From NCBI RefSeq assembly GCF_016595675.1, contig NZ_JAENJH010000006.1, positions 310,001-374,000 of the forward strand: a stretch of DNA of 64,000 nucleotides, read 5' to 3'. A model generated the notes under the pieces. That model did not search any database. It was not told the DNA's origin and saw only the letters and a list, made by a program, of their open reading frames with translations. Positions 9,590 to 40,295 of the stretch are shown here, one piece after another. Origin of the DNA: Prauserella cavernicola. GTDB lineage: Bacteria; Actinomycetota; Actinomycetes; Mycobacteriales; Pseudonocardiaceae. The translations under genes and the position numbers were made by a program. Every line of letters begins with the position of its first letter. The first letter of the stretch is position 1.

Positions 9590-9682
9590 GACACCGAGGC
9601 TAGGAGGGCCACCCGGTGGGCCGGATCGTCCGACGGGTCCGACTCGAGGGACCAAAGTCGGAGCGGGTCGTCGGTGCGCTGC

Positions 9683-10369
9683 TCAGTCCGGTCCGTCCGG
9701 CAGGTCGAGTTCGGCGTCGTGCACGAGCAGCGCCACCTGCACGCGGTTGTTGAGCCGCAGCTTGGTGAGTATCGCCGACACGTGGGTCTTCACCGTGGTC
9801 AGGCCGAGGTGGTGGCGTGCGGCGATCTCGGCGTTGGAGCGCCCGGTACCGATCTCGATCGCGACCTCGCGCTCCCGGTCGCCGAGCAGGTCGAGACGCC
9901 TGCGGGCAGCGCCACGGCGACTGTCCTGCTCGGACTCCGCGACCCTGGCGATGAGCCGCCGGGTCACCTCGGGGGAGAGCACGGGACGCCCCTGGGCCGC
10001 GTGCCGGATCGCGACGACGAGCTCGTCCGGCGGGGTGTCCTTGAGCAGGAACCCCGCGGCACCGGCCCGCAGCGCACGCAGGACGTGGGCGTCGGCGTCG
10101 AAGGTGGTGAGCACGATGACCTGCGGCGCGGGAGAGCCGGACCGCAACGTCTCCGTCGCGGTGAGCCCGTCCGTCCCCGGCATCCGGATGTCCATCAGCA
10201 CGACGGCCGGGTTGTGCCGCCGGGCCAGCTCGACCGCTTCCGCGCCGTCACCGGCCTCGGCGACCACCCGGAGGTCGGGCGCGCCGCGCAGCATCATGGT
10301 CAGCCCGAACCGCACCACCGGGTCGTCGTCGACGAGCAGCACGTCGATGATCTCCGCAGCATCGCTCAC
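9683..10369 (-). CDS. NarL/FixJ-type response regulator
   Basis: This 228-residue protein has a receiver domain (about residues 8-120) with phospho-acceptor Asp60 in VVLMDIRMPG, acidic DDD at 14-16 and the switch lysine in LLKDTPP. A LuxR-type helix-turn-helix follows at about 155-215. GTG at 10369 overlaps the kinase stop in a GTGA junction, so the two are translationally coupled. It is the cognate regulator of the kinase at 10366. Its targets are unknown; the upstream TetR gene at 11598 is on the same strand and may share the transcript. Confidence 0.94.
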   Translation of the reverse strand: MSDAAEIIDVLLVDDDPVVRFGLTMMLRGAPDLRVVAEAGDGAEAVELARRHNPAVVLMDIRMPGTDGLTATETLRSGSPAPQVIVLTTFDADAHVLRALRAGAAGFLLKDTPPDELVVAIRHAAQGRPVLSPEVTRRLIARVAESEQDSRRGAARRRLDLLGDREREVAIEIGTGRSNAEIAARHHLGLTTVKTHVSAILTKLRLNNRVQVALLVHDAELDLPDGPD

Positions 10370-25941: not shown

Positions 25942-28152
25942 GTGAACTACGGACACCGGCTGAGGTTCGGGCTGCGCCTGAGCACCGATGCCGACCACGA
26001 ACCCGATCACCTGATCAAGAGCGCGGCCCTGGCCGAGCGGTGGGGACTGGACCTGCTGGTCGTCCCGGCCGGAACCGCGGGCGCCGACCTCGAGCCGGGC
26101 ACCGTGTCGTCGTGGATCGCGGCGGCGACGGGCTCGCTCGGGCTGGTCGTGGAGTCTCCGCCGACGCCGCATCCGGCAATGCTCGCCAGGGCCGTCGCCA
26201 GTCTGGACCAGCTCACAGCGGGCCGGGTCGAACTGGCTCTGCACGCCGAAGCGGCGGATTCCGGGGAAGCACTCGGCGACACGATCGCCGTCGTCCGCGA
26301 GCTCTGGAACGTCCTCGACCGCGGCCTCGGCCGGTACACCGGCCGCCTCCACCGGCTTTCCGGCGCGCAGAAGGCCGCGCCCGCGCACGACGTGCCGATC
26401 GCCGTGCACGCCGACAGCCACGTGCTGCGGCTGGTGGGACGGCAGGCCGACGAATGGTCGACGGGCGACGTCACCGCGCTGGCGGAGGGCAACCGCGTGG
26501 TCGACGAGGCCGCGCGAGCGGCGGGGCGCGATCCCCGTGAGATCCGCAGGCGCATCACGATCCGAGGTGACGTCGGCGAGCGCGCGGGCACGTTCACCGG
26601 AACCACCGAGGACTGGGTGAGCGACCTGCTGCCACTCGTTCTCGACCACGGGGTGGGCACGGTCGTGCTCGACACCGACTCCGAGGATCTCGCGGCGCGG
26701 TTCGCGAACGATGTCGCTCCCGCGCTGCGGGCCGCCGTGGACGCGGCGCTGCCTCACGGCTGGTCGAGCACACGGGTCCGCCGTGCGGCGGCGCTCGCCA
26801 GGCGCCGCCCCGGGATCGACTACGAGGGCACTCCGGAGGGGATGGCCGAGGTCGTCGAGCCAGGCGACCTGGCCTACGCGCGCCTGCGCTCCGGGTACCT
26901 GCGCGGTGGTGCACCGGGAATCGTCCTGCGTGCCACGACGGCCGAACAGGTGGCGCAGGCGCTGGCGTACGCCCGCCGGCATCCCGGCGTGCCCCTGTCC
27001 CGCCGCAGCGCCGGGCACGGGGTTTCCGGACGCTCCACAAACGACGGCGGGATCGTCATCGACGTGTCGCTGATGAACACGATCGAGGTCCTCGACGAGA
27101 AGACGCGCCGCGTGCGCATCGGGCCGGGTGCCCGCTGGGCCGAGGTCGCGGCCGCGCTGGAACCCTACGGCTGGGCGTTGAGCTCGGGCGACTACGGCGG
27201 TGTCGGCGTCGGCGGCCTCGCGACCGCGGGCGGCATCGGATACCTCTCACGCGAGCACGGTCTGACGATCGACCACCTGCGGGCCGTGGAGATGGTGCTC
27301 GCGGACGGCTCCATCGTGCGGGCCAGCGACGTGGAGAACGCGGACCTGTTCTGGGCGGTCCGGGGTGCGGGCGCCAACTTCGGGATCGTCACCGCGTTCG
27401 AGTTCGAGGCCGACGAGGTCGGTCCGGTCGCCTTCGCCCAGCTCACCCAGGACGCGAGCGACGTCGAGCGCTACCTCGTCGAGTGGGGCCGCGTGGTCGA
27501 ACAGTCCCCGAGGGATCTCACCAGCTTCGTGATCCTGCCGCCGTCGCGGGCGGGGCGACCGGCGGTGGCGCTGAGCCACACCATGGTCCACGCCGCCGAC
27601 CGCGAGACCGTGCTCGCGCGGCTGGAGCCGCTGGCCGCGATCTCCCCGATGTACGCCCAGGACGTCGCCATCTCGTCCTACGCGGCCGTCATGAACAACG
27701 CGAGCGACGACGCGCCGGTATCGCGCGGCGAGCCGGTCTCGCGCAGTGGCCTGTTGCGGCACGTGACCCCGGAGTTCGCCGCGGCCTCGGCCCGTGTGCT
27801 CCGCAGCGGCGCGATCGGCTGGTTCCAGCTCCGCGCGGTCGGCGGGGCCGTCGCCGACGTTCCCGCGGACGCCACCGCCTACGCCCACCGCGACGCGAAC
27901 TTCTCGCTCGTGGTGATGGGCGGTGACGACGAGGTGGTGGACGCGGCCTGGGAGCTGCTGCGTCCCTTCCTCGACGGCCTCTACCTCAGCTTCGAGTCCA
28001 GTCTCCGGCCCGAACGCCTCGCCGAGGCCTTTCCACCGGCGACTCTCTCGCGGCTGCGTCGGCTCAAGTCCACGTACGACCCGGAGGGAGTGTTCGACGA
28101 CAACTTCGCACTCACTCCCGCCACGAACGATCCCGGAGGAAGCGACCAATGA
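25942..28152 (+). CDS. Fusion of luciferase-like flavin monooxygenase and BBE-type FAD oxidase
   Basis: This 736-residue protein joins two flavin domains. Residues 1-265 resemble luciferase-like (F420/FMN) monooxygenases, with LDQLTAGRVELAL and VGRQADEWSTG. Residues 285-730 form an FAD-linked oxidase of the berberine-bridge type, with RRSAGHGVSGRSTNDGG (FAD site), GVGVGGLATAGGIGYLSREHG and a C-terminal BBE-like YDPEGVFDDNFAL. GTG at 25942 overlaps the stop of an 11-codon upstream frame. The next gene is a free-standing luciferase-like enzyme overlapping by four bases. Together they may hydroxylate and oxidise one substrate; its identity is unknown. Control by the divergent HxlR gene is likely. 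Confidence 0.85.
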   Translation: MNYGHRLRFGLRLSTDADHEPDHLIKSAALAERWGLDLLVVPAGTAGADLEPGTVSSWIAAATGSLGLVVESPPTPHPAMLARAVASLDQLTAGRVELALHAEAADSGEALGDTIAVVRELWNVLDRGLGRYTGRLHRLSGAQKAAPAHDVPIAVHADSHVLRLVGRQADEWSTGDVTALAEGNRVVDEAARAAGRDPREIRRRITIRGDVGERAGTFTGTTEDWVSDLLPLVLDHGVGTVVLDTDSEDLAARFANDVAPALRAAVDAALPHGWSSTRVRRAAALARRRPGIDYEGTPEGMAEVVEPGDLAYARLRSGYLRGGAPGIVLRATTAEQVAQALAYARRHPGVPLSRRSAGHGVSGRSTNDGGIVIDVSLMNTIEVLDEKTRRVRIGPGARWAEVAAALEPYGWALSSGDYGGVGVGGLATAGGIGYLSREHGLTIDHLRAVEMVLADGSIVRASDVENADLFWAVRGAGANFGIVTAFEFEADEVGPVAFAQLTQDASDVERYLVEWGRVVEQSPRDLTSFVILPPSRAGRPAVALSHTMVHAADRETVLARLEPLAAISPMYAQDVAISSYAAVMNNASDDAPVSRGEPVSRSGLLRHVTPEFAAASARVLRSGAIGWFQLRAVGGAVADVPADATAYAHRDANFSLVVMGGDDEVVDAAWELLRPFLDGLYLSFESSLRPERLAEAFPPATLSRLRRLKSTYDPEGVFDDNFALTPATNDPGGSDQ

Positions 28153-29048
28153 CCGACTACGGCCACGACCTGTGGTTCGGCAGCTTCGTCACGCCCGCCG
28201 CCCGCCCGCCTCAGGCGCCGGTCGAGCTGGCACTGGCGTCGGAGCGGGCCGGGCTCGATCTCGTCAGCTTCCAGGACCACCCCTACCAGTCGGCGTTCCA
28301 GGACACCTGGACGCTGATGTCGTACGTCGCGGCGCGCACCGAGCGGATCCGGATCAGCGGCAACGTACTGAGTCTTCCGTTGCGTTCGCCTGCCGTGCTG
28401 GCCCGCGCCGCCGCGAGCCTCGACCGGCTCACCGGAGGGCGGGTCGACCTGGGCATCGGCGCGGGCGCGTTCTGGGACGGCATCGCCGCGATGGGAGGTC
28501 GCAGGCTCACTCCGGGCCAGGCCGTGCAGGCCTTGGAGGAGGCCGTCCAGGTGATCCGTGGACTGTGGGCCACCGACGAGCCGGGCCCGCTCAAGGTCGA
28601 CGGCGAGTACTACTCCGTGACCGGCGCCAAGCGCGGGCCCGCGCCCGCCCACCGGATCCCGATCCACATCGGCGCCTACAAGCCGCGCATGCTCCGGCTG
28701 ACCGGGCGGATCGCCGACGGTTGGCTGCCGTCACTGGGATATCTGCCCGACGGTCCCGCATCGCTCGACGCCATGAACGAGCAGATCGACGAGGCCGCCT
28801 CGGCCGCGGGCCGCGAGCCCGCCGCGGTCAGCCGCCTGCTCAACCTGAGCGGCCGATTCACGACCGGCGGTGGCGGGCTGTTGCAGGGAACCCCCGGCGA
28901 CTGGGCGGAGCAGCTCGCCGACCTCGCACTGCAGTACGGCGTGTCCGGGTTCATCCTCGCCTCGGACGAGCCCGCCGAACTGGACCTCTTCGGACACGAG
29001 GTCGCGCCGCGAACCCGCGAGCTCGTCCAGTCCGAACGCACGGCGTGA
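28149..29048 (+). CDS. LLM-class flavin-dependent oxidoreductase
   Basis: This 299-residue TIM-barrel enzyme is related to luciferase and F420-dependent reductases. It has SFQDHPYQSAFQDTWTLMSY near residue 40, LDRLTGGRVDLGIGAGAFWD near residue 95 and ITGRIADGWLPSLGY-type substrate-side motifs. It overlaps the preceding fusion gene at an ATGA junction. The N-terminus YGHDLWFGSF echoes YGHRLRFGLR of the fusion, so the two luciferase-like domains may have arisen by duplication. FMN or F420 use cannot be decided from sequence alone. Confidence 0.9.
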   Translation: MTDYGHDLWFGSFVTPAARPPQAPVELALASERAGLDLVSFQDHPYQSAFQDTWTLMSYVAARTERIRISGNVLSLPLRSPAVLARAAASLDRLTGGRVDLGIGAGAFWDGIAAMGGRRLTPGQAVQALEEAVQVIRGLWATDEPGPLKVDGEYYSVTGAKRGPAPAHRIPIHIGAYKPRMLRLTGRIADGWLPSLGYLPDGPASLDAMNEQIDEAASAAGREPAAVSRLLNLSGRFTTGGGGLLQGTPGDWAEQLADLALQYGVSGFILASDEPAELDLFGHEVAPRTRELVQSERTA

Positions 29049-29110: not shown

Positions 29111-30433
29111 TCAGAAGATCCCCACGATCGCCTGGTATGACGCCCAGACGCCGATGCCGCCGACGACGATCAGTGCCGCGGTCATCCACCACCGGTTGAC
29201 GTGCTGGCGCAGCACGAACTTGCTGCTCGTGGTCAGCACGATGATCGCGATGATGATGATCGGTCCCGCGATCGCGGCCAGCGCGTTGACCAGGATGGTG
29301 AGCTCCACGAACGACGGCATCACCGGCAACGAGAAGATCAGGGGCAGCACCAGGAGGAAGCCTCCCTGCAGCCACCGGAAGGACGCTTTCTTCTCGAAGT
29401 CCTCGCCGGCCACCTGGGAAGCGGCGTCACCGGCTGGCCTGAAGGTGTTGACCACGCCGTCCATCAGGAGCTTCGTCTGTCCGTAGGAGTACGCCGGAAA
29501 CGTGGTGAAGGTGATGAAGAACAGCCCCAGCCAGAACAGGATCTCTCCGGCCAGCCCGATCGTGCTGCCCAGCAGTCCCGCGAGGGCGTTCGCGTCGTCG
29601 ATCGCGCTGCCGGCGACACTCGTCTCCGCCGCCGTCACCCAGATCGCGAGGTTGATGACCAGGATCACCAGCATGCCGACGGCGAGGTCGATCAACTGGA
29701 TCTTGCGGTGTTTCGGTGTCAGCCAACCCTTGTCCTGCAGGAAGTAGTTGTACATCAGGTTGGTCGTCGACCCGCCGACGCCGCCGATCAGTGCGGCCAC
29801 GATGACGAGGCTCTCGAAGCCTCCCGTGCTCTCGGGAACCTGGAACGTCAGCCCCTGCACGAACTCCGCCGGGTCGAACCCCTGGATCAGCACGACAGCA
29901 CCGAAACTGCCGAGCAGGATCACGGCGGCGGCGCGGGCGACGAACTCGAACGTCGCATACTGCCTGCGCGTGAACAACAGGAGCAGCGTGACGGCGACAA
30001 GCGCGGCCGCGGAGTAGAAGACACCCCATTCGGAGTCTCCCGGCCGCCCGATCAGGTTGTAGAAGGCGGTACCCGCGCCCTTGATGATGTAGGTCGCATA
30101 GCCGAATCCGAGGGCGAACGCGCACAGCCCGATGATGAACGGAAGCGGGCGCCAGATCCTGGCGAAGCCCTCCATGATGGAGTTGCTCGAGTTGTTGTTG
30201 CACAGGACGTACTTGGCGATCGCCGCGACGAACACGTAGCGCGCGAGCAGTGACAGAACCAGTGCCCACATCAGCGCGTAGCCGTAGTCCGCACCGGACA
30301 CCGACGACGCGATGAGGTCACCGGCGCTCATCCACGCCAGTGCCATCACGATGCCGGGTCCCAGGGCGCGCAGATGGCCCCGCGCGCCTTGGGGGACGGG
30401 CGCTACGCCAGCTCGAGTTTCAGGGGCTGTCAC
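29111..30433 (-). CDS. Nramp-fold transporter lacking canonical metal ligands
   Basis: This 440-residue membrane protein has about 11 helices and Nramp-family spacing. The TM1 motif DPGN is replaced by SAGD (residues 36-39), and the TM6 MPHN motif is replaced by STTN in GGSTTNLMYNY (residues 221-230). A canonical Mn/Fe site is therefore missing. Nramp-related Mg or non-metal transporters show such changes. The GTG at 30433 starts the usual N-terminus. It lies 62 bp downstream of a GntR gene on the same strand and is divergent from an FAD oxidoreductase, so an organic substrate is possible. Transport function itself is not proven. Confidence 0.8.
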   Translation of the reverse strand: MTAPETRAGVAPVPQGARGHLRALGPGIVMALAWMSAGDLIASSVSGADYGYALMWALVLSLLARYVFVAAIAKYVLCNNNSSNSIMEGFARIWRPLPFIIGLCAFALGFGYATYIIKGAGTAFYNLIGRPGDSEWGVFYSAAALVAVTLLLLFTRRQYATFEFVARAAAVILLGSFGAVVLIQGFDPAEFVQGLTFQVPESTGGFESLVIVAALIGGVGGSTTNLMYNYFLQDKGWLTPKHRKIQLIDLAVGMLVILVINLAIWVTAAETSVAGSAIDDANALAGLLGSTIGLAGEILFWLGLFFITFTTFPAYSYGQTKLLMDGVVNTFRPAGDAASQVAGEDFEKKASFRWLQGGFLLVLPLIFSLPVMPSFVELTILVNALAAIAGPIIIIAIIVLTTSSKFVLRQHVNRWWMTAALIVVGGIGVWASYQAIVGIF

Positions 30434-30495
30434 GGTGGATCACTACTCCTCGTTGAGTGTGTTCGTTCGATTCCCGCGGGCTGGCTCGGAAGGTG

Positions 30496-31194
30496 TCAGA
30501 TCGTGTCGTCCGAGTTCGGGGGCGGAACGTCGCCTGCCAGCCGGGATCGGAGGAAGCCGGCCCAGGTCGACACGTGCTTGCGCATGGTGTCCTCGGCGAG
30601 GTCGGCGTCGCCGCGGCTGATGGCCGTCGCGATGGCCAGGTGTTCTTCGGCGGCGCGTCGCGACCAGGCGGGTGACGCGTGCCCGTAGGCGAGCCGGCGG
30701 CACAGCCGCACGCGGTCGTGGATCGTCGCGAGCAGTTCGATCACCGTGGCGTTGCGGCTTCCCCGGGCGATGGCGTCGTGGAAGTCGTTGCCGAGCTCGG
30801 ATGCCTCCGTGGGACTCATGTCGATCGATCCGTCGACCAACCCTTCGAACTGCACCATGAACGGGGCCAGGAAGTCCTCGTCGACGCGCTCGGCGGCCAG
30901 CCGTGCCGCCATTCCCTCCAGTGCTTCGCGCGCCTGGTAGAGGCTGTGCATGTTCTCCGCGCTGAACTCGCGTACGTGCGCGCCTCGCTGCGCGATGATC
31001 GACACGAGCCCGTCGCGTTCGAGCTGACGGAGCGCCTCGCGAACCGGAACCCGGCTCACCGCCAGCTCGTCGGCCACCACGCGCTCGGGAATGGGGTCGC
31101 CAGGTTGGTAGTGGCCGCTCAGGATCCGGGTGCGCAGTTCCTGGCGGATCGCCTCGTACTTACGCGCGCTGCCGTCGCGCTCTCCGGTGGTCAT
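30496..31194 (-). CDS. GntR-family regulator (FadR/FCD type)
   Basis: This 232-residue protein has an N-terminal winged helix (residues 15-80, with VADELAVSRVPVREALRQLE) and an all-helical FCD effector domain with metal-site His residues around NDFHDAIARG and EEHLAI. It is divergent from the FAD oxidoreductase gene and upstream of the Nramp-like gene. GGAGGG four bases before the ATG at 31194 fixes the start, shortening the longest frame by 35 codons. Two TGGTATACC palindromes in the gap are its probable operators. The inducer may be a carboxylic acid, as for many FCD proteins. Confidence 0.93.
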   Translation of the reverse strand: MTTGERDGSARKYEAIRQELRTRILSGHYQPGDPIPERVVADELAVSRVPVREALRQLERDGLVSIIAQRGAHVREFSAENMHSLYQAREALEGMAARLAAERVDEDFLAPFMVQFEGLVDGSIDMSPTEASELGNDFHDAIARGSRNATVIELLATIHDRVRLCRRLAYGHASPAWSRRAAEEHLAIATAISRGDADLAEDTMRKHVSTWAGFLRSRLAGDVPPPNSDDTI

Positions 31195-31212
31195 CGGGCC
31201 CTCCGCCAAGGG

Positions 31213-31242
31213 TGGTATACCAACATCGTCGTATGGTATACC
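31213..31242. promoter_or_regulatory. Two GntR operators TGGTATACC
   Basis: TGGTATACCA at 31213-31222 is a perfect palindrome and TGGTATACC recurs at 31234-31242. The copies are 21 bp apart (two helical turns) and lie between the divergent GntR and FAD-oxidoreductase genes. Confidence 0.8.
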
Positions 31243-31352
31243 GGTAGCCGGGTGAGTCAACCCTTGTACGACGTCGGCTCTGCACGTCGATCCACGCACG
31301 CATCGTCGGCGCTGATCAGGAACCCGTAAGCCAGCTGCGGAAGTGAGGAACC

Positions 31353-32696
31353 ATGGAACATCTTGGTGACTACGACACCATCGTCGTGGGGGCAGGCGTG
31401 ACCGGAATCGTCGCTTCCGTCGCCGCGGCCCGCGCCGGAGCCACCGTGCTGCTGGTGGAGAGCAGCGGCATCCTGGGCGGGCTCATCACCGGTGGCCGTC
31501 TCACCAAGCCGACCGGCATCGTCCAGCCTGGTGTATACCTCGAACTCATCGAACGTGCCGCCGCCTACGGTGGTGCCGACCCGAACGTCCAGGAATCGCA
31601 CTGGGGCGGCTACAGCGGGGTCTTCGACACCGAGGTGATGCAGCGCGTCATCATCGAGACCATCGAGGAGGCCGGGGTCGAGGTCCTGCTCTTCGCCCAT
31701 GTCACCGGTGCGCTTCGCGAGGGCGACCGGGTGCGCGGGGTCGAGCTGCACACCAAGGCCGGTCCGCAGCTGGCCACCGCCACGACCGTGATCGACGCGA
31801 GTGGCGACGGCGATCTCGCCGCACTGGCGGGAGTGGATTTCATGTACGGGCGCCCGGGTGACGGGCACGTGCAGCCGATGACCAGCTACTTCCGGATCCT
31901 GAACGTCCGGTTCTCGGAGTTCGCCCAGGATTGCCTGGACCACCCCGACGACATCCGCGAACTGGTGATCCCCGAGGGCGCGGGCCAGGACAACGAGGAC
32001 TACGTCCTGAAGTTCTACATGGCCGGTTTCGAGCAGCGCATCGCGGACGCGCGTCGCGACGGGTTCGAGTGGATCATCCCCAAGACCCACCTGCACATGA
32101 AGGCCGGGCTGCTGCCCGGCGAGCTCAACGTCAACGCCACCCGGGTCCAGGGCAACGCGCTCGATCCGCGGACCCGCACCCGGGCGGCCCTCGAGGTGCG
32201 CAAGCAGGCGTACTGCGCGTTCGACTTCCTGAAGAAGTACGTCCGCGGGATGGAGTCGGCGATCTTCCTCGACGTGGCGCCCGTTCTCGGTGTCCGGGAG
32301 ACCCGCCGCATCCAGGGCGACTACGTGCTCACCGAAAGCGACGTCCGAGGCGAAGCGCGATTCGACGACGCCATCGGACTGTCGAACGCGCCGCTGGACA
32401 TCCACGAGCCGGGCGGTGAGGGCGGCGCGATGATCGGCGTCAACAGCGGTTACGGCATTCCGTATCGGACCATGCTGCCCCGGGGCGCCGAAGGTCTGCT
32501 GATCGCCGGTCGTTGCCTGTCCGTCGACTCCGGCGCGTTCGCCTCGACCCGCAACACGCCGGCGTGCGCGATCACGGCTCAGGCGGCGGGGATCGCCGCC
32601 GCCGAATGCGCGCGCCGGAAGGTCTCGCCACGGGAGTTGCCCGTCGAGGTCGTCCAGAAGGCGCTGGCCGACATCGGGGTCTCGCTCGGGAACTAG
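31353..32696 (+). CDS. FAD-dependent oxidoreductase (FAD_oxidored family)
   Basis: This 447-residue flavoprotein has the dinucleotide motif VVGAGVTGIVASVAAARAG near residue 11, the aligned GGLITGGRL, the core motif TTVIDASGDGDLAALAG and the C-terminal FAD segment GLLIAGRCLSVD. It belongs to the group that includes fumarate-reductase-like enzymes of unknown substrate. There is no signal peptide. GAGGAACC precedes the ATG at 31353. Its expression should respond to the divergent GntR protein, together with the Nramp-like transporter on the other side. The three genes look like one uptake-and-oxidation module. Confidence 0.88.
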   Translation: MEHLGDYDTIVVGAGVTGIVASVAAARAGATVLLVESSGILGGLITGGRLTKPTGIVQPGVYLELIERAAAYGGADPNVQESHWGGYSGVFDTEVMQRVIIETIEEAGVEVLLFAHVTGALREGDRVRGVELHTKAGPQLATATTVIDASGDGDLAALAGVDFMYGRPGDGHVQPMTSYFRILNVRFSEFAQDCLDHPDDIRELVIPEGAGQDNEDYVLKFYMAGFEQRIADARRDGFEWIIPKTHLHMKAGLLPGELNVNATRVQGNALDPRTRTRAALEVRKQAYCAFDFLKKYVRGMESAIFLDVAPVLGVRETRRIQGDYVLTESDVRGEARFDDAIGLSNAPLDIHEPGGEGGAMIGVNSGYGIPYRTMLPRGAEGLLIAGRCLSVDSGAFASTRNTPACAITAQAAGIAAAECARRKVSPRELPVEVVQKALADIGVSLGN

Positions 32697-32702
32697 TGCG
32701 GG

Positions 32703-32733
32703 GGTGCGCGTCGAGTCCTGCTCGGCGCGCACC
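32703..32733. terminator. Hairpin between convergent FAD-oxidoreductase and TIGR03086-like genes
   Basis: A 13-bp stem with one mismatch pairs 32703-32715 with 32721-32733 around a five-base loop, seven bases after the stop codon. There is no clear T tract. Confidence 0.55.
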
Positions 32734-32741
32734 TCGTGTTC

Positions 32742-33302
32742 TCAGGGACGACGCCCCAGAGCCGTGAGGAGCCGCTCCTGCGGCGACCCGCCGGGGTCGT
32801 GGCCGGGGTCGAACTGATCGTTCGGGCCGAGCGCGGTCACCCAGGGAAGGTAGGTCGTCAGCACCACCGCGACGAGCTCGTGGTCGAGGGCCTCGACGGT
32901 TCCGGTGGCACGGGCCAGATCCCACGCGTGCACGGCGATGTCACCGGCCCGGTAGAGCGCGAACTCGCGCCCGCTGATCCGGTCGGCGGGATGCTGACAG
33001 AGTCGTTGCAGCGCACCGTGTTCGGCGAAGGCCCGAGCCTGCTCCTCCGCGCTGTCCCGGAGGTCACCGGCGGCCGCATCGGCTGTCAGGCCGCCACGTC
33101 GCACGCGCGCGGCGGCCCGGTCGGCGGTGGCGCCGTTGAGCAGGAGGACGGCCATGCGGTTGCCGTTGGCGACGTGCTCCACCAGCTCCAGCACCGTCCA
33201 GGACTCGCACGGCGTGGGCCACCTCCACCGGTCCCCGGCGACGTCGCGCAGTCGCCGGTCGAACTCGGTGACGGCACGACGCAGCACCGTGAGTTCGTCC
33301 AT
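32742..33302 (-). CDS. TIGR03086/DinB-like metal-binding protein
   Basis: This 186-residue protein belongs to the DinB/mycothiol-maleylpyruvate-isomerase fold common in actinomycetes. PCESWTVLELVEHVANGN carries the first metal His, and GDIAVHAWDLARATG carries the later His pair. These four-helix proteins bind a divalent metal, and some are thiol-dependent transferases or isomerases. The exact reaction is not readable. I prefer the ATG at 33302 (start MDELTVLRRA); a GTG at 33338 is also open. It is on the same strand as, and about 80 bp downstream of, the TetR gene of the rubber locus. Confidence 0.85.
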   Translation of the reverse strand: MDELTVLRRAVTEFDRRLRDVAGDRWRWPTPCESWTVLELVEHVANGNRMAVLLLNGATADRAAARVRRGGLTADAAAGDLRDSAEEQARAFAEHGALQRLCQHPADRISGREFALYRAGDIAVHAWDLARATGTVEALDHELVAVVLTTYLPWVTALGPNDQFDPGHDPGGSPQERLLTALGRRP

Positions 33303-33381
33303 CGTCCGCCCCTGGGGAGTCCGGTCCGACAGGTCCACACCCTGAGCGGAGGCCAGTGCTCGCGGCTTTTCGGCGTCGTGA

Positions 33382-34062
33382 TCAGGTGGGCTCTGGCGGC
33401 GCGTCGAGCATCGGCACGAGGAACCTGCGGGCTACAGCACGGACCTGCTCGTCGTCGTCGAGGTCGACGAGTTCGCTCGGCGTCACCAGGAACGACGCGG
33501 ACAGCCGGACCATCACCTCGGCGGCGAGTTCGACGTCCACGGCGGTGGAGACGTTGCCCGCCTCCTGTTCGCGACGGAGCTGGCCCGCGAGAAAGCGCCG
33601 GACGGTGGCCATGGTCCGTCCGCCGTCGTTGATCATCGACGGCACGAGCACGTCCGGTTCGATGGCCATCAGCCCGCCGATGAGCGGGTTGGACCGGATG
33701 GCGCGCAACGCGCTCGTGAAGCCGAGCACCACCCGGTCGGCGATTGTCCCGGCCTTCTTGATCTCCACGAGGAACTCGTCGAAGTAGCGGCGGAACTCGC
33801 GCCGCACGACTTGTTCGACCAGCGCGTCCTTGGTGGCGAACCGGCGGTAGACGGTGACCCTCGAGACCCCGGCCCGGCGAGCCACGTCCTCGACGGTGGA
33901 GCGCCGGATGCCCACGAGACAGAACTGCTCGTAGGCGGCCGCGAGCAGCCGCTCGGTGCCCTCGTCGTTGTCGTCGGCCCGCTCGACGGCGTCGGCGAAC
34001 GCCCGTTCCAGCAGCGATTCCGAGTCCGGTCGAGTCATGTCAGCGGACAGTACAGGTTCCAC
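33382..34062 (-). CDS. TetR-family regulator of the latex-clearing operon
   Basis: This 226-residue regulator has a helix-turn-helix at about residues 45-90 (STVEDVARRAGVSRVTVYRRF) and a TetR ligand domain. It faces the lcp operon across a gap holding four GTATCA half-sites. TetR proteins called LcpR are known to control lcp in Gordonia and Streptomyces, and this is its likely counterpart. GTG at 34062 follows AGGAAGGG; an internal ATG at 34038 has no ribosome-binding site. The inducer may be an oligo-isoprenoid cleavage product, which is inference. Confidence 0.88.
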   Translation of the reverse strand: MEPVLSADMTRPDSESLLERAFADAVERADDNDEGTERLLAAAYEQFCLVGIRRSTVEDVARRAGVSRVTVYRRFATKDALVEQVVRREFRRYFDEFLVEIKKAGTIADRVVLGFTSALRAIRSNPLIGGLMAIEPDVLVPSMINDGGRTMATVRRFLAGQLRREQEAGNVSTAVDVELAAEVMVRLSASFLVTPSELVDLDDDEQVRAVARRFLVPMLDAPPEPT

Positions 34063-34128
34063 GGCGCCCTTCCTGGTGCGTGTTCACTCCAGCGGCCGGT
34101 TGGCGTCTTGCCTCCGAAACGTCCTCAC

Positions 34129-34163
34129 TGATACAAAGTATCACTGCGCGTATCAGGGTATCA
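34129..34163. promoter_or_regulatory. GTATCA half-site array before lcp
   Basis: TGATAC-AAA-GTATCA is a perfect 15-bp palindrome at 34129-34143. It is followed by direct GTATCA copies at 34150-34155 and 34158-34163. The array is 35 bp before the first lcp start and 67 bp from the divergent TetR start, which fits a repressor operator. Confidence 0.75.
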
Positions 34164-34197
34164 TTCCGAATTCGTGACTCGAGGAGGAGTTCGCGGC

Positions 34198-35421
34198 ATG
34201 GCGGAACTCAGCAGGCGCAACATGTTGATAGCCGGGGGAGCGGTCGGTGCGCTGGGCGCGCTCACCGTGGCGTCCCCCGCACAGGCTCGCTCGCTGTGGA
34301 CGTGGTCGCCACAAGGTTCGGTGGCGGGCACGGGAGCGGGCGCCGACCCGCGCTGGGTGTGGGACGAGGAGGCGGACCCGCTGGTCGCCTCGCTGCTCGA
34401 CCGTGGCGACGTCCCCAGGGTCAACGCGCTACTGCGCACCTGGACGAAGAACGGTCAGCCACTGCCGGACGGGTTGCCCGCGGACCTGCGGGACTTCATG
34501 GAGCGAGCGCGCTCGCTGCCGTCGTGGGCCGATCAGGGCAAGCTCGCCACCGCGGTGGAGTTCAACGAGAAGCGGGGGCTCTACCTCGGCGTGTTGTACG
34601 GGCTGGCCAGCGGCATGATGAGCACGGTCATCCCCAAGGAAGCGCGAGCGGTCTACTACTCGCAGGGCGGCGCGGACATGAAGGACCGCATCTCCAAAAC
34701 CGCCAAGCTCGGCTACGACATCGGTTCGCGCAACGCCTACCAGCCCGACGGCGAGATGATCGTGACCTCGGTCAAGACGCGGCTGGTGCACGCGGCGGTG
34801 CGACACCTGCTGCCGCAGTCCCCGCACTGGGCGGGCGTCGCGGACGAGGACATCCCGATCAGCCAGCGGGACATGATGGTCACCTGGCACAGCCTGCCCA
34901 CCACCGTGATGCAGAAGCTGCGGGCCTGGGAGGTGCCGATTCCCCGCGTCGAGTCCGAGGCGTTCCTGCACTCGTGGCAGCTGGGTGCGCACCTGCTCGG
35001 GATCAAGGACGAGTACATCCCCGCGTCCTGGGCCGAGGCCGACTCCCAGGCCAAGCAGGTCCTCGACCCCGTGCTGGCGCCGACCCCCGAGGGCGTGAAG
35101 CTGGCCGACATCCTGCTCAACCTGGGCTCCGAGATCGACGCCGGGATCCTGAGCAAGCCCGTGCTCGGCTCGTTCACGCGCTTCATGCTCGGCGACGAGA
35201 TCGCGGCCTGGCTGAAGATCCCGAGGGAGCCGGTGTGGGATCCGCTGCTCAACGCGGCCTGGGGGCCGTTCGTCGCGGTCCGCGAGGGTCTGTTGCCGTT
35301 CCCGTTGGCGCCCAAGGCCTACTGGACGTTCGACGAGTTCCTGCGCCGGGCCGCGCTGTTGTTCCTGTCCGAGGCCCGGCCGATCAGCATCGAGATCCCG
35401 GAGACCAACCGGCCGTCCTGA
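34198..35421 (+). CDS. lcp: Latex clearing protein (rubber oxygenase), first copy
   Basis: This 407-residue secreted b-type haem dioxygenase cleaves the double bonds of poly(cis-1,4-isoprene) to oligomers with aldehyde and methyl-ketone ends. A Tat signal (SRRNML at residues 5-10, ending near PAQA at 27-30) exports it. The residue numbers match Streptomyces sp. K30 Lcp exactly: Glu148, Arg164, Lys167, Thr168, His198 and Arg328. Lys167 and His198 are the haem ligands. Length is also the same. GAGGAGGAG precedes the ATG at 34198. It heads an operon with a second lcp and oxiB-oxiA. Confidence 0.96.
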   Translation: MAELSRRNMLIAGGAVGALGALTVASPAQARSLWTWSPQGSVAGTGAGADPRWVWDEEADPLVASLLDRGDVPRVNALLRTWTKNGQPLPDGLPADLRDFMERARSLPSWADQGKLATAVEFNEKRGLYLGVLYGLASGMMSTVIPKEARAVYYSQGGADMKDRISKTAKLGYDIGSRNAYQPDGEMIVTSVKTRLVHAAVRHLLPQSPHWAGVADEDIPISQRDMMVTWHSLPTTVMQKLRAWEVPIPRVESEAFLHSWQLGAHLLGIKDEYIPASWAEADSQAKQVLDPVLAPTPEGVKLADILLNLGSEIDAGILSKPVLGSFTRFMLGDEIAAWLKIPREPVWDPLLNAAWGPFVAVREGLLPFPLAPKAYWTFDEFLRRAALLFLSEARPISIEIPETNRPS

Positions 35422-35471
35422 TCGGACCGTCGCTGCCACTGGAGACACCGGACTCAAAGAGGAGTCAGCAC

Positions 35472-36692
35472 ATGGCCGAACTCAACAGACGCAGGATCCT
35501 GGTGTCGGGCGGGACGCTGGGAGCGATCGGCGCCCTCGGCATGGCCGCACCGGCGCACGCGCGCTCGCTCGTCGAGTGGACATGGGCACCGAGCGGGTCG
35601 ATCGCGGGCGCCGGGGCCGGCGCCGACCCGCACTGGGTGTGGGACGAGGAGGCCGACCGGCTCGTCGCCTCACTGCTCGATCGCGGTGACGTCCCCGAGG
35701 TCAACCGTCTACTGTGGAACTGGACCCGCAACGACCAGCCCTTGCCCAGCGGGCTTCCCCAGGATCTCCACGCGTTCATGGAGAAGGCGCGCCGGCTGCC
35801 GCCGTGGGCCGACCGCGCCAAGCTGGAGATCGCCGCCGAGTTCAACAAGTCCCGCGGGCTCTACCTCAACCTGCTCAACGGCGTGGGCGGCGGGATCCTC
35901 GCCACGGCGATCCCCAACGAGGCGCGCTCGGTCTACTACTCCAAGGGCGGCGCCGACATGGAGGACCGGGTCGCCAAGACGAGCATCTTCGGGTTCTCGG
36001 TCGGTGCTCTCAACGCCTACCGGCCGGGCGGCTCGTGCGTGGTGGAGTCCGTCAAGACGCGGCTGGTCCACGCCGCGGTGCGGCACCTGCTGCAGCAGTC
36101 GCCGCACTGGACCGGGGACATCCCGATCAGCCAGGAGGACATGCTCGTCACCTGGCACACGCTGCCGACGTTCGCCATGCGCAAGCTGCGCGAGTGGAAG
36201 GTGCCGATCACCAAGGCCGAGTCGGATGCCTACCTGCACGTGTGGCAGGTGACCGCCTACCTGCTCGGCATCAAGGAGGAGTACATCCCCGCGTCGTGGG
36301 ATGCCGCCTACGAACAGTCGGACCAGGTGCTGCCGCGCAACATGGGCCCGACCCGCGAGGGCGTGGAGCTGACCGACATCCTGCTCGGCCAGCTCGCCGA
36401 GCAGACCAGCCCCGGCAGCATCAGCAGGCCGTTGTGCAACGCGCTCGCGCGCTACCTCGTCGGCGACAAGGTGGCCGACTGGGACGGCATTCCGAGGGAA
36501 CCGGTGTGGGATCCGCTGATCGCCACCGCCTGGCCCGCGCTGGTGCGGTTCCGGGAGGGTCTCGTGCCGCTGCCGCTCGTTCCCGAGATCGCCTGGACCC
36601 TCGACGAGGCCGTACGGCAGTACATCCTCTTCTACCTCACCAAGGGCGAGGAGACCAAGATCGAGATTCCGACCACGAACCGGCCCGAGTGA
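35472..36692 (+). CDS. lcp: Latex clearing protein (rubber oxygenase), second tandem copy
   Basis: This 406-residue paralogue follows the first lcp by 50 bp. It keeps a Tat signal (NRRRIL at residues 5-10, PAHA cleavage region). The key residues are conserved with a two-residue shift: Glu150, Arg166, Lys169, Thr170 and His200, plus Arg327. It should therefore be an active haem-dependent rubber oxygenase. It differs from copy one around the active-site entrance (GVGGGILATA against GLASGMMSTV), so cleavage pattern or chain preference may differ. GAGGAG precedes the ATG at 35472. Its stop overlaps the oxiB start. Confidence 0.95.
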   Translation: MAELNRRRILVSGGTLGAIGALGMAAPAHARSLVEWTWAPSGSIAGAGAGADPHWVWDEEADRLVASLLDRGDVPEVNRLLWNWTRNDQPLPSGLPQDLHAFMEKARRLPPWADRAKLEIAAEFNKSRGLYLNLLNGVGGGILATAIPNEARSVYYSKGGADMEDRVAKTSIFGFSVGALNAYRPGGSCVVESVKTRLVHAAVRHLLQQSPHWTGDIPISQEDMLVTWHTLPTFAMRKLREWKVPITKAESDAYLHVWQVTAYLLGIKEEYIPASWDAAYEQSDQVLPRNMGPTREGVELTDILLGQLAEQTSPGSISRPLCNALARYLVGDKVADWDGIPREPVWDPLIATAWPALVRFREGLVPLPLVPEIAWTLDEAVRQYILFYLTKGEETKIEIPTTNRPE

Positions 36693-38953
36693 GCGGGACC
36701 CTCGGCCGCCGCCGGTTCCTCGGCTACGTGCTGGCGGCCCCGACCCTGGTCGCGGTGGCCGGGCCGGGGCCGACGGCCGCCGCGCAGCTGCCGTCGCCGG
36801 AGATCACGGAGATCCTCGACCTCAACGACCTGATGACGGTGGCGGCGCTGCCGACCGCCAACCTGATCGCCGTCGAGGTCAATCCGGACGGCACGGTGTC
36901 GTTCGCCCTGCCCCGCGCGGAGGTGGGGCAGGGCATCACCACCTCGACGGCCATGTTGATCGCCGAGGAGATGGACGTGCCGCTGGAACGGGTGCGGGTG
37001 ACGCTGGCCGGTGCCCGCCCGGAACTGGTGTTCAACCAGCTCACCGGCGGGTCGAACACCACCATCGCGACCTACACACCGGTCCGGGTCGCCGCGGCCA
37101 TCGCGCGGCGCAGGCTGCTCGACGCGGCGGCGAGCAGGCTCGGCTCACCGCCGCGCGAGCTGACGCTGACCGCCGGGGTCGTCTCCGACCGTCGCGGCGG
37201 CAGTGTCGCCATCGGCGCGCTGGCGACGGCGGCCGCCGCCACACGCACCGAGCCGGTGTCGGTGCGGCTGCGGCCGAGGGAGCAGTTCACCGTCATCGGC
37301 ACCCCGCGCAACCGGATCGACGCGCTGGCCGCCGTCACCGGGCGCAAGAAGTTCGCGATGGACCTCGACGTCGGCGACGCCAAGCCGACGATGGTGTGCC
37401 GCCCGCCGACCATCAACGGCGCGGTCGGCTCGGTGACCAACCTCGCCCAGGTCCGCGCCCTGCCCGGCGTCACCGACGTCGCGGTGATCTCCACCGGTGT
37501 CGCGGTGCGCGCCGAGACCTTCGGCCAGTGCATCGACGCCGTGCGGGCCCTGCGCGTGTCCTGGAAACCCGGGACGGTGGAAGGGACGTCGGACGACACT
37601 GTGCTCAGGCGACTGCGGGCGGCCGAGCTCCCGATCGGCCTTCCTCCGCCGACGCCGACCGTGGAGGGCCGGTTCACCTTCTACTTCCGCAGCAACAGCG
37701 CGCTGGAACCCAACTGCGCGATCGCCGACGTGCGCGCGGACAGAGCCGAGGTCTGGTCGGCGCTGAAGTCGCCGATCGTGGCGCAGCAGAGCATCGCGGC
37801 GAAGCTCCGGCTCCCACTGTCCAGGGTCACGGTGCACGTCACCGAGGGCGGTGGGTCCTTCGGGCGCAAGCTGTTCTTCGACGCCGCGCTGGAAGCCGCC
37901 GAGGCGTCGAAGGCGATGGGTAAACCCGTCAAGCTCATGTGGCACCGCGCCGACGACTCGCGCCAGGGCCGCACCCACCCGATGTGCACCTCCCGGGTGC
38001 GGGCGTCCTACCTCGGCGACACCGTGCTCGGCTACCACCAGCGGCACACCAGCGTCACCACCGATCTCGGCCACGGGCTCGGCGAGATCATCACGGCCAC
38101 GGCGGCGCGGCTGCCGGTCGGCGACATCGGCTTCGCCGGCACGTTCTTCCAGCTCTCCCAGACGATGTCGTACGACTTCGGCGTCAGCACGCGCCTGCTC
38201 AGCGAAACCGGCAGGGGCTTCAACACGGGCAGCATGCGCAACGTGTACTCGCCCGACGTCACGTGTGCCCGCGAGCTCATCGTCGACCAGCTCGCCGCAC
38301 GCATGGGCAAGGACCCCTACGAGTTCCGGCGCGACTTCCTGCGCGACGACCGGTCCCGCGCCGTGCTGGAGCGGGCCGCCGAGGCTGGCGGCTGGGGGAG
38401 GACGATGCCGGAGGGCACCGCGCAGGGCATCGCGTTCCACGCCGAGTACAAGGCGGTCAGCGCCGCGCTGGTGGAGATCGACTGCAGGCCCGAGACGGTC
38501 GGCCGGCCCGTCCGGGACGGCGTCGCCGGTCCCCGCGTCACCAGGGTCGTCTTCGCCGTGGACGTCGGCCTCGCCGTCAATCCCCGGGGTCTCGAGGCAC
38601 AGATGCTGGGCTGCATCTCCGACGGCATCGCGCTGGCGCTGACGTCCAGCCTGCACCTGCGGGACGGTCACTTCCTCGAAGCCAGCTGGGACAACTACTT
38701 CTACACCCGGCAGTGGAACATCCCGCCCGAGGTTCGGATCATCGTCGTGCCCAGCACCTCGGAGGAACCCGGAGGCGCGGGGGAGCTGGGTGTCGCCGCG
38801 TCGATGGCCGCGGTCGCCTGTGCCTACGGCCGTGCGACCGGGACGATGCCCACCAGCTTCCCGATCAACCACCAGACCCTGTCCTTCGAACCCAAACCCA
38901 CCGTCCCGCCCGTACCCGAGTCTCCGGTGGACGGCCTGGACCACGCCCGCTGA
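36689..38953 (+). CDS. oxiB: Molybdopterin aldehyde oxidoreductase large subunit (OxiB-like)
   Basis: This 754-residue xanthine-oxidase-family subunit resembles the isoquinoline 1-oxidoreductase beta chain. With OxiA it should oxidise the aldehyde ends of Lcp oligomers to acids. It has a Tat-type N-terminus (GRRRFLGYVLAAPT, then AAAQ), molybdopterin motifs such as TEGGGSFGRKLFF and a C-terminal EEPGGAGELGVAAS with the active-site Glu region. GTG at 36689 overlaps the second lcp stop as GTGA, so translation is coupled. lcp followed by oxiA and oxiB is the known gene set of rubber-degrading Streptomyces and Gordonia. Confidence 0.93.
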   Translation: MSGTLGRRRFLGYVLAAPTLVAVAGPGPTAAAQLPSPEITEILDLNDLMTVAALPTANLIAVEVNPDGTVSFALPRAEVGQGITTSTAMLIAEEMDVPLERVRVTLAGARPELVFNQLTGGSNTTIATYTPVRVAAAIARRRLLDAAASRLGSPPRELTLTAGVVSDRRGGSVAIGALATAAAATRTEPVSVRLRPREQFTVIGTPRNRIDALAAVTGRKKFAMDLDVGDAKPTMVCRPPTINGAVGSVTNLAQVRALPGVTDVAVISTGVAVRAETFGQCIDAVRALRVSWKPGTVEGTSDDTVLRRLRAAELPIGLPPPTPTVEGRFTFYFRSNSALEPNCAIADVRADRAEVWSALKSPIVAQQSIAAKLRLPLSRVTVHVTEGGGSFGRKLFFDAALEAAEASKAMGKPVKLMWHRADDSRQGRTHPMCTSRVRASYLGDTVLGYHQRHTSVTTDLGHGLGEIITATAARLPVGDIGFAGTFFQLSQTMSYDFGVSTRLLSETGRGFNTGSMRNVYSPDVTCARELIVDQLAARMGKDPYEFRRDFLRDDRSRAVLERAAEAGGWGRTMPEGTAQGIAFHAEYKAVSAALVEIDCRPETVGRPVRDGVAGPRVTRVVFAVDVGLAVNPRGLEAQMLGCISDGIALALTSSLHLRDGHFLEASWDNYFYTRQWNIPPEVRIIVVPSTSEEPGGAGELGVAASMAAVACAYGRATGTMPTSFPINHQTLSFEPKPTVPPVPESPVDGLDHAR

Positions 38954-38968
38954 AACGAGGAGTTTCCC

Positions 38969-39445
38969 TTGCCCGAGCACACCTTCCGGGTCAACGGCGA
39001 GCAGGTGACCGTCGACGTCGAGGGCGACGTGCGCCTGCTGTGGGTGCTGCGCGACCTGCTCGGCATCACCGGGCCGAAGTACGGTTGCGGCATCAACGTC
39101 TGCAAGGCGTGCACCAGTCATCTCAACGGTGCCGCGGTGAACCCGTGCGCGATTCCCGTCGAGAACCTGCGGCCGACCGACGAGGTCACCACCATTGAGG
39201 GCCTCGCGGACACGGTGGACGCCGAGCTGCATCCGATGCAGCAGGCCTGGCTCGACCACGACGTCGCCCAGTGCGGCTACTGCCAGCCCGGCCAGATCAT
39301 GGCCGCGGTGGCGCTGGTCCGCCGCGTCGCCGCCGAGGGCAGGCCGGTCACCGACGCCGACCTCGACGGCCTGCGCAACATCTGCCGCTGCGGCACCTAC
39401 TCGCGCATCCGCGACGCCATCAGGACCGGAGCCGGGAACATGTGA
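38969..39445 (+). CDS. oxiA: [2Fe-2S] small subunit of the aldehyde oxidoreductase (OxiA-like)
   Basis: This 158-residue iron-sulfur subunit passes electrons from the molybdenum site of OxiB. The plant-type cluster motif is CGINVCKAC followed by the Cys in AAVNPC. The second cluster is CGYCQPGQ with CRCGTY. The start is a rare TTG at 38969, six bases after GAGGAG; no ATG or GTG lies nearby that would keep the full ferredoxin domain. It has no signal peptide, so it is probably carried out by the Tat signal of OxiB. It closes the operon and is convergent with a methyltransferase gene seven bases away. Confidence 0.93.
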   Translation: MPEHTFRVNGEQVTVDVEGDVRLLWVLRDLLGITGPKYGCGINVCKACTSHLNGAAVNPCAIPVENLRPTDEVTTIEGLADTVDAELHPMQQAWLDHDVAQCGYCQPGQIMAAVALVRRVAAEGRPVTDADLDGLRNICRCGTYSRIRDAIRTGAGNM

Positions 39446-39452
39446 GCGCCGT

Positions 39453-40295
39453 TCAGGGACAACGTGCGGTGACCAGCCAGGTCGCCGAGTCGTAGTGCAC
39501 GCCGCGTTCGTCGAGGTGCCCGTGGAGAGTGCGGCGCAGGGCCTCCAGCGCGCGGGCCCGCGGGTCGGGATCGAGCTGTGCCAGCCTGCCCGCGTTCTGA
39601 CTGGTGACGAATCGCAGCGCATCGTCGACGTCGGCACCGAAGTACATGGGCTCGGCCAGCCCTCGCAGGTCGACATCGGCGAAACCGGCCGACGTCAGCA
39701 GGTCCCGAACCCGGGGCGGGTCGCTGAGCGCGAGCGGACTCGGCGCGTCCGCCGGCGGTGACTCCTCGACGCCCAGCGCGGCGAAGAAGCTGCGCAGCCA
39801 CTCCTGCCGTGCGAGCGGCTGCCAGGTCAGCAGCACGAGTCGTCCGCCGGGACGCAGCGCCCGGCCGAGGTTGGCGAACGCCGCCACCGGGTCGCCGAAG
39901 AACATCGCACCGTGCCTGCTGATGGCGATGTCGAAACCCTGTCGTGCGAAGTCGTGGACCTGTGCGTCCGCCTGCTCGAACGACGCGTTGGGCAGCCCGT
40001 CGAGCCGGGCGCGCTCGCGGGCCAGTTCGAGCATGGCCGACGACAGGTCCACGCCGAGGGCCATGCCGTCCGGGGCGGCCCGCGCGGCGTCGCGGGTCGT
40101 GCGCCCCGTTCCGCAGCCGACGTCGAGCACGGCCGAGGTCCGCTTGAACTCCGCGGCGGCGAGGAAGGTGTCCTGATAGTTCGCGACGCCGTTGTCGAAG
40201 CGGTCGGCGTTCGCGACCCAGACGTCGCCCCCCGCGCCGTCCCAGCTCGTCAGTTGGGACACGTTCGACGGATCGACAGGGTTCTCGGTGCTCAC
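39453..40295 (-). CDS. Class I SAM-dependent methyltransferase
   Basis: This 280-residue Rossmann-fold methyltransferase has motif I, VLDVGCGTGRTTRDAA, near residue 55, the acidic GVDLSSAML, and the post-motif ALRPGGRLVLLTW. It matches the UbiE/Coq5-like group, whose substrates cannot be told from sequence. The GTG at 40295 is the start that gives the usual N-terminus. It is convergent with oxiA and divergent from the acyl-CoA cluster, with no sign that it belongs to either. Confidence 0.9.
   Translation of the reverse strand: MSTENPVDPSNVSQLTSWDGAGGDVWVANADRFDNGVANYQDTFLAAAEFKRTSAVLDVGCGTGRTTRDAARAAPDGMALGVDLSSAMLELARERARLDGLPNASFEQADAQVHDFARQGFDIAISRHGAMFFGDPVAAFANLGRALRPGGRLVLLTWQPLARQEWLRSFFAALGVEESPPADAPSPLALSDPPRVRDLLTSAGFADVDLRGLAEPMYFGADVDDALRFVTSQNAGRLAQLDPDPRARALEALRRTLHGHLDERGVHYDSATWLVTARCP

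Follow-up and report, generated by a model that had tools for sequence, protein, structure and literature searches.

The 64 000-nucleotide stretch of Prauserella cavernicola DNA analysed here (the window) very probably carries an LcpR-controlled rubber-utilization operon of the tetR–lcp1–lcp2–oxiB–oxiA type. This reading is supported by the matches of both Lcp proteins to LcpK30, the conservation of all 12 checked K30 residues in each, the recurring gene order, orthology with the genes of Actinoplanes sp. OR16, the Tat motif of OxiB and a putative operator. The arrangement has been published and recurs in other actinomycetes, and is therefore not new; the operon is a good but ordinary example of a known rubber-degradation gene set. 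Published work is cited from the available parts of each paper.

The initial annotation had described tandem latex-clearing proteins with oxiB–oxiA and a TetR regulator, and all five genes are indeed open and in that order. The region that it covered, 34129–39445, begins at the first base of the putative operator, and tetR lies just outside it. The divergent tetR (33382–34062, reverse strand) encodes up to 226 aa, with an alternative ATG at 34036–34038, and matches the Pfam family TetR_N (8.5e-14). The other genes are on the forward strand: lcp1 (34198–35421, 407 aa, LCP1 subfamily), lcp2 (35472–36692, 406 aa, LCP2 subfamily), oxiB (36689–38953, 754 aa, GTG start) and oxiA (38969–39445, 158 aa, TTG start). 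The start of Lcp1 was taken at ATG 34198, although the mechanical list of open reading frames begins the gene at GTG 34174; a likely ribosome-binding site, gaggag, can be read at 34184–34189 (forward strand). There are 50 bases between lcp1 and lcp2 and 15 between oxiB and oxiA, while the start of oxiB overlaps the stop of lcp2 by four bases. This spacing is compatible with co-transcription of lcp1–lcp2–oxiB–oxiA. A scan of 33900–39700 for sigma-70-like promoters gave none; such scans miss other types of promoter.

The operon is flanked downstream by a methyltransferase gene, and no FAD-subunit gene lies directly beside oxiB–oxiA. The adjoining region 29111–33338 codes for an Nramp-type transporter, a GntR/FCD regulator, an FAD_oxidored protein and a protein resembling mycothiol maleylpyruvate isomerase, with no visible link to rubber. 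Further away, a single long frame (25942–28152) combines a luciferase-like monooxygenase domain with an FAD_binding_4 domain, and is followed by a second luciferase-like gene at 28149–29048.

Both Lcp proteins are, by their sequences, latex-clearing proteins of the K30 type. They belong to the Pfam family PF09995 (MPAB_Lcp_cat; 4.7e-17 for Lcp1 and 1.6e-13 for Lcp2), and NCBIfam assigned no family to either. In a search of PDB sequences (E up to 0.001), LcpK30 (5O1L, 5O1M) was the sole match of both, over nearly the full length: against 5O1L, Lcp1 has 59.3 per cent identity (E 4.1e-164) and Lcp2 has 56.9 per cent (E 6.8e-154). The initial annotation had stated that both copies are intact, that they keep every residue known to matter in K30 and that copy one matches even in residue number. 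In the alignment, all 12 checked K30 residues are present in each protein. Given the start at ATG 34198, six of them carry their K30 numbers in Lcp1 (E148, R164, K167, T168, H198 and R328); the equivalents in Lcp2 are E150, R166, K169, T170, H200 and R327. The other six, K30 D56, D60, R195, R202, H203 and T230, are likewise found in both.

These residues are also conserved among relatives. The proximal His198, the distal Lys167, Arg164, Thr168, Glu148, Arg195 and Arg202 are invariant in 81 of 81 Lcp1 and 27 of 27 Lcp2 sequences, and 80 of the 81 Lcp1 sequences retain D60 and H203. Arg328 is invariant in all 81 and all 27 as well; the available portions of the K30 papers PMC5522427 and PMC11095694 do not mention it, and its importance rests on the initial annotation. 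At the N-terminus, SRRNML in Lcp1 and NRRRIL in Lcp2 are followed by a hydrophobic stretch, which by reading alone resembles a Tat signal. A regular-expression search found the twin-arginine motif in 52 of 81 LCP1-type and 23 of 26 LCP2-type relatives.

There are five PF09995 proteins in the whole genome, two of which are Lcp1 and Lcp2. One of the three others, of 412 aa and with no twin-arginine N-terminus, appears by reading to be MpaB-like. The presence of these proteins could suggest that the window pair are DUF2236 oxygenases of another function, similar to MpaB, in an operon for some other isoprenoid, such as a terpenoid from plants or actinomycetes. We consider this very improbable: both proteins match LcpK30 nearly from end to end with all checked residues kept, and the OR16 enzymes active on latex (PMC7413915) appear to belong to the LCP1 and LCP2 types. 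Membership of a different DUF2236 group, which the initial annotation had named as the outcome that would speak against it, was rejected on these full-length matches and conserved residues; Pfam, PDB, alignment and tree all place both proteins with K30. With an Lcp profile (E up to 1e-30), the tandem pair are the sole matches in the genome.

The downstream genes code for a predicted OxiAB molybdenum hydroxylase, with the two subunits and the Tat motif expected of one. OxiB is the molybdopterin-binding large subunit (Pfam MoCoBD_2/MoCoBD_1), with the Tat-like N-terminal sequence GRRRFLGYVLAAP, and OxiA is the [2Fe-2S] small subunit (Fer2/Fer2_2), with eight cysteines (40/45/48/60 and 102/105/139/141) and no signal sequence recognizable by eye. 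OxiB Glu699, in the motif GGAGELG, is presumably the catalytic glutamate of the xanthine oxidase family. The twin-arginine motif of OxiB was found by regular expression in 27 of 27 near-full OxiB matches among relatives. An extracellular OxiAB has already been proposed from the Tat sequence (PMC9782182, PMC8235351), so we do not present the localization of OxiB as a new point.

The closest published precedent is Actinoplanes sp. OR16, which shares with the window all five genes and their order, including a divergent tetR and an LCP1-type gene ahead of the LCP2-type gene (PMC7413915; types assigned by us from the published oligonucleotides). In OR16, lcp1–lcp2–oxiB–oxiA are co-transcribed according to RT-PCR, transcription rises 22- and 17-fold with rubber, the adjacent TetR protein (ACTI_59620) binds the region upstream of lcp1, and, with natural rubber as the substrate, the purified Lcp1 and Lcp2 take up oxygen at 4.02 and 1.17 U/mg (PMC7413915). 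The qPCR oligonucleotides of that paper translate to LYLGVL and VDFNEK (lcp1) and to DCVVN (lcp2). In our set, 58, 63 and 27 of the 81 Lcp1 proteins contain LYLGVLY, YLGVLY and FNEK, respectively, and none of the 27 Lcp2 proteins does, whereas CVV occurs in 16 of the 27 Lcp2 proteins and in none of the 81 Lcp1 proteins. The OR16 peptides are thus of the LCP1 and LCP2 types, which supports gene-by-gene orthology with the window. By this close analogy, the suggestion in the initial annotation that the cluster is a compact rubber-degradation unit is supported. OR16 differs in having, far from the operon, a third lcp next to a regulator of its own (PMC7413915), whereas the window genome has two Lcp matches (E up to 1e-30).

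Similar clusters are known from Streptomyces CFMR 7, Dactylosporangium AC04546 and Microtetraspora AC03309 (PMC9108482, PMC11169899, PMC8538451). Microtetraspora sp. AC03309 resembles the window in having two adjacent lcp genes, which are its only lcp homologues, with oxiB, oxiA and nearby TetR genes; its neighbouring genes and the placing of its TetR genes are different (PMC8538451). Dactylosporangium sp. AC04546 and D. sucinum JCM 19831 share the adjacent lcp pair followed by oxiB–oxiA but carry a third lcp elsewhere (PMC11169899, PMC8538451). Streptomyces sp. K30 shares the enzyme family, the residues and the oxidoreductase pair, as lcp–oxiB–oxiA (PMC5522427, PMC3426405), but has a single lcp (PMC9108482).

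A scan of named genomes was used to examine how often this gene order recurs; the frequencies below apply to the best 80 of 147 relatives of the two Lcps. Gene order was established by tblastn of the window proteins, and neighbouring TetR matches below 50 per cent identity were dropped. The order tetR–lcp1–lcp2–oxiB–oxiA occurs in 24 of the 80 loci, in 22 of them exactly as reverse-strand tetR followed by the four other genes. The remaining two are a Dactylosporangium locus (L029) that carries one additional TetR gene and whose operator matches at 11 of 12, and an Amycolatopsis pretoriensis locus (L053) in which lcp2 lies in two adjacent pieces in different frames (8624–9831), by frameshift or sequencing error.

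Other arrangements are less complete or differently ordered. In two loci (L025 and L040), lcp2–oxiB–oxiA form a unit of their own upstream of a divergent tetR–lcp1 pair, so that lcp2 there goes with oxiBA and not with lcp1. The lcp2 gene stands ahead of lcp1 in L024, and likewise in L102, L103, L104, L109, L114 and L120. The first of these, from Saccharopolyspora indica, reads tetR–lcp2–lcp1 and has downstream just a 37-residue match to OxiB (8453–8563; E up to 1e-8), as if oxiB had been lost or replaced. One locus (L078) has lcp1–oxiB–oxiA with no lcp2. Within the stretch fetched, 19 loci have tetR and lcp1 alone, and 29, of which 27 are from Nocardia, have an LCP1-type gene alone. The latter loci accord with the reported failure to detect oxiAB in mycolic-acid genera (PMC11169899). 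A distant Lcp relative (50% identity) was seen in Micromonospora tulbaghiae (L037, 1781–2989), 4 kb from an LCP1-type gene and on the opposite strand.

Closer to the window, Lcp matches are found in two of the four genomes of the genus examined, the window's own included. The second of them (G003) has all five genes at 76–86% identity, together with the operator. The other two genomes have no Lcp match, so rubber use is not constant across the genus. At family level, an Lcp match (E up to 1e-60) is present in 55 of 200 genomes, and 19 of the 200 have two adjacent Lcp copies on one strand.

Lcp1 and Lcp2 of the window are 61 per cent identical. In a tree of 110 sequences, 81 LCP1-type and 27 LCP2-type proteins form two clades with an SH-aLRT support of 100 each; K30 lies outside both, and the distant L037 sequence is on a long branch. 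The tree is a quick one, supported by SH-aLRT with no bootstrap and midpoint-rooted for drawing. Fragments below 900 bases (both lcp2 pieces of L053 and the first lcp1 piece of L067) were left out of it, and the distant L037 sequence is left out of the subfamily counts as well. Each clade contains Pseudonocardiaceae, Micromonosporaceae and Streptosporangiaceae, which indicates that the duplication predates the spread of the cassette. A recent tandem duplication was rejected on the 61 per cent identity and the presence of each clade in several families.

The initial annotation had also stated that the paralogues differ near the substrate channel and may therefore produce oligomers of different length. 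At the 42 tunnel and pocket positions given for K30 in PMC11095694 they do differ, in 20 cases, but not detectably more than at other mature positions (128 of 335; Fisher p = 0.25). The two subfamilies each have a fixed residue (at 90% or more), but not the same one, at 34 positions: these make up 6 of the 42 channel positions and 28 of the 329 others (p = 0.25); for the pocket taken by itself the count is 2 of 11 (p = 0.27). An enrichment of paralogue differences at the channel was rejected on these values. Some of the changes lie by the haem pocket or tunnel, namely K30 S138 to G, S142 to A, L171 to F, S233 to T and I396 to T; those at 138, 233 and 396 are subfamily-wide, and those at 142 and 171 occur in only 5 of the 27 Lcp2 sequences. 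In K30, mutations of Lys167 and Glu148 altered the activity and not the product spectrum (PMC5522427). Different oligomer lengths for Lcp1 and Lcp2 are thus unsupported by these comparisons, though not refuted.

What then might maintain two copies? We lean slightly towards Lcp2 being a variant in gene dosage or stability with the same chemistry as Lcp1. The seven invariant catalytic and haem-site residues listed above are identical in all sequences of both subfamilies, and the same latex is a substrate of both OR16 enzymes, whose temperature and pH optima lie slightly apart (PMC7413915). However, each clade is conserved in its own right across families, which argues for some distinct role. The two enzymes might instead share the work, with Lcp1 as the main endo-cleaver of long chains and Lcp2 acting on another form of the substrate or giving another product length, the pair shortening the chain in two steps. 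The two well-supported clades, the 34 fixed differences, including pocket and tunnel positions K30 S138G, S233T and I396T, and the unequal specific activities of the OR16 enzymes (PMC7413915) agree with such a split. It is nevertheless somewhat doubtful, since the differences are not concentrated at the channel, the K30 channel-residue mutants kept their product spectrum (PMC5522427), and many loci have an LCP1-type gene and no lcp2 in the stretch fetched, so that Lcp2 is not always beside Lcp1.

A relative of the window TetR, at 61–76% identity, is present at 49 of the 80 related loci, and the tetR product is probably an LcpR-type repressor of the operon, judging from sequence. The gap between tetR and lcp1 contains a putative operator (34129–34163, forward strand) of the form TGATAC-N15-GTWTCA-N2-GTATCA, with half-sites TGATAC at 34129–34134, GTATCA at 34150–34155 and GTATCA at 34158–34163; a further GTATCA, at 34138–34143, makes a short palindrome with the same TGATAC. 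Analysis of 50 tetR–lcp intergenic regions (the 49 loci and the window) showed TGATAC-N15-GTWTCA with at least 11 of 12 matches in 47 of them, vs 0 of 2000 shuffles. Among offsets from 7 to 41, two stand out, 21 (47 regions) and 29 (44 regions), the next best reaching 6; offset 29 is the second right half-site, and the window half-sites begin at 34129, 34150 and 34158. With the spacing one base off there is no enrichment: 44 of the 50 regions have at most 8 of 12 matches and none more than 10.

The spacing was chosen on the same 50 regions, so the fairer tests are the comparison of spacings and 19 tetR–lcp gaps from the window's family, all of which match at 11 or 12 of 12. Seventeen of the 19 do not belong to the defining set; they comprise 12 different operator sequences, again all at 11 or 12 of 12. 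The gaps of L097 and L102 repeat those of L025 (Actinophytocola algeriensis) and L024 (S. indica), with nearly or fully identical intergenic DNA, which suggests that the family sampled is the Pseudonocardiaceae. The 7.2-Mb genome contains a single match to the 35-bp operator pattern with up to three mismatches. The 27-bp pattern of two half-sites, with up to one mismatch, is found at the operator and at two further places, each with one mismatch. A wide regulon was rejected on these results.

The operators of LcpR type known from the palindromes of VH2 and OR16 likewise belong to a regulator of the TetR kind (PMC7413915). The OR16 palindrome holds GTAACA-N2-GTATCA, which resembles the right two half-sites of the window with one base changed in the first; the left half-site TGATAC, 21 bases upstream, would lie beyond the palindrome as printed (PMC7413915). 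It would be attractive to combine old, separately maintained Lcp1 and Lcp2 subfamilies having a real division of labour with a single-target TetR acting through an operator of three half-sites, of which the published OR16 palindrome shows only a part, but we regard this combination as unlikely.

Other regulators of lcp, LcpRB and CRP, are known from the available literature, so the TetR protein may act with them or in their place. The CRP-type box has the consensus TGTGAN6TCACT (PMC8235351). A box TGTGA-N6-TCACA is present with 9 or 10 of 10 matches in 25 of the 50 intergenic regions vs 1.5 per cent of shuffles, and this CRP/GlxR-like box usually begins 27–43 bases ahead of the operator. It is missing from the window between 34063 and 34128, where the best match is 5 of 10, and the 19 regions of the window's family reach at most 8 of 10.

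For the rubber-utilization operon itself, we infer expression, activity, repression, ligand, localization and products along the following lines. When rubber products are absent, TetR would occupy the operator between tetR and lcp1 and keep the operon low, and a rubber-derived ligand would release it. Lcp1 and Lcp2 would be exported folded by the Tat system and would cleave poly(cis-1,4-isoprene) at a haem b whose ligand is the proximal histidine, the lysine serving as a gate and the glutamate as a base, to give oligo-isoprenoids with aldehyde and ketone ends. OxiA would be carried out by OxiB through the Tat signal of the latter, and OxiAB would then oxidize the aldehyde ends to acids outside the membrane. 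These acids would be taken up and degraded by beta-oxidation.

The separate Lcp lines and the operator consensus leave the known picture of rubber cleavage unchanged. What the window contributes is a rubber-degradation operon, its catalytic residues sound, from a genus with Lcp in two of the four genomes examined. With an operator consensus this sharp, LcpR sites can be found or disproved from sequence, and the existence of two separately conserved lines means that the reason for keeping both can be tested with any one tandem pair.
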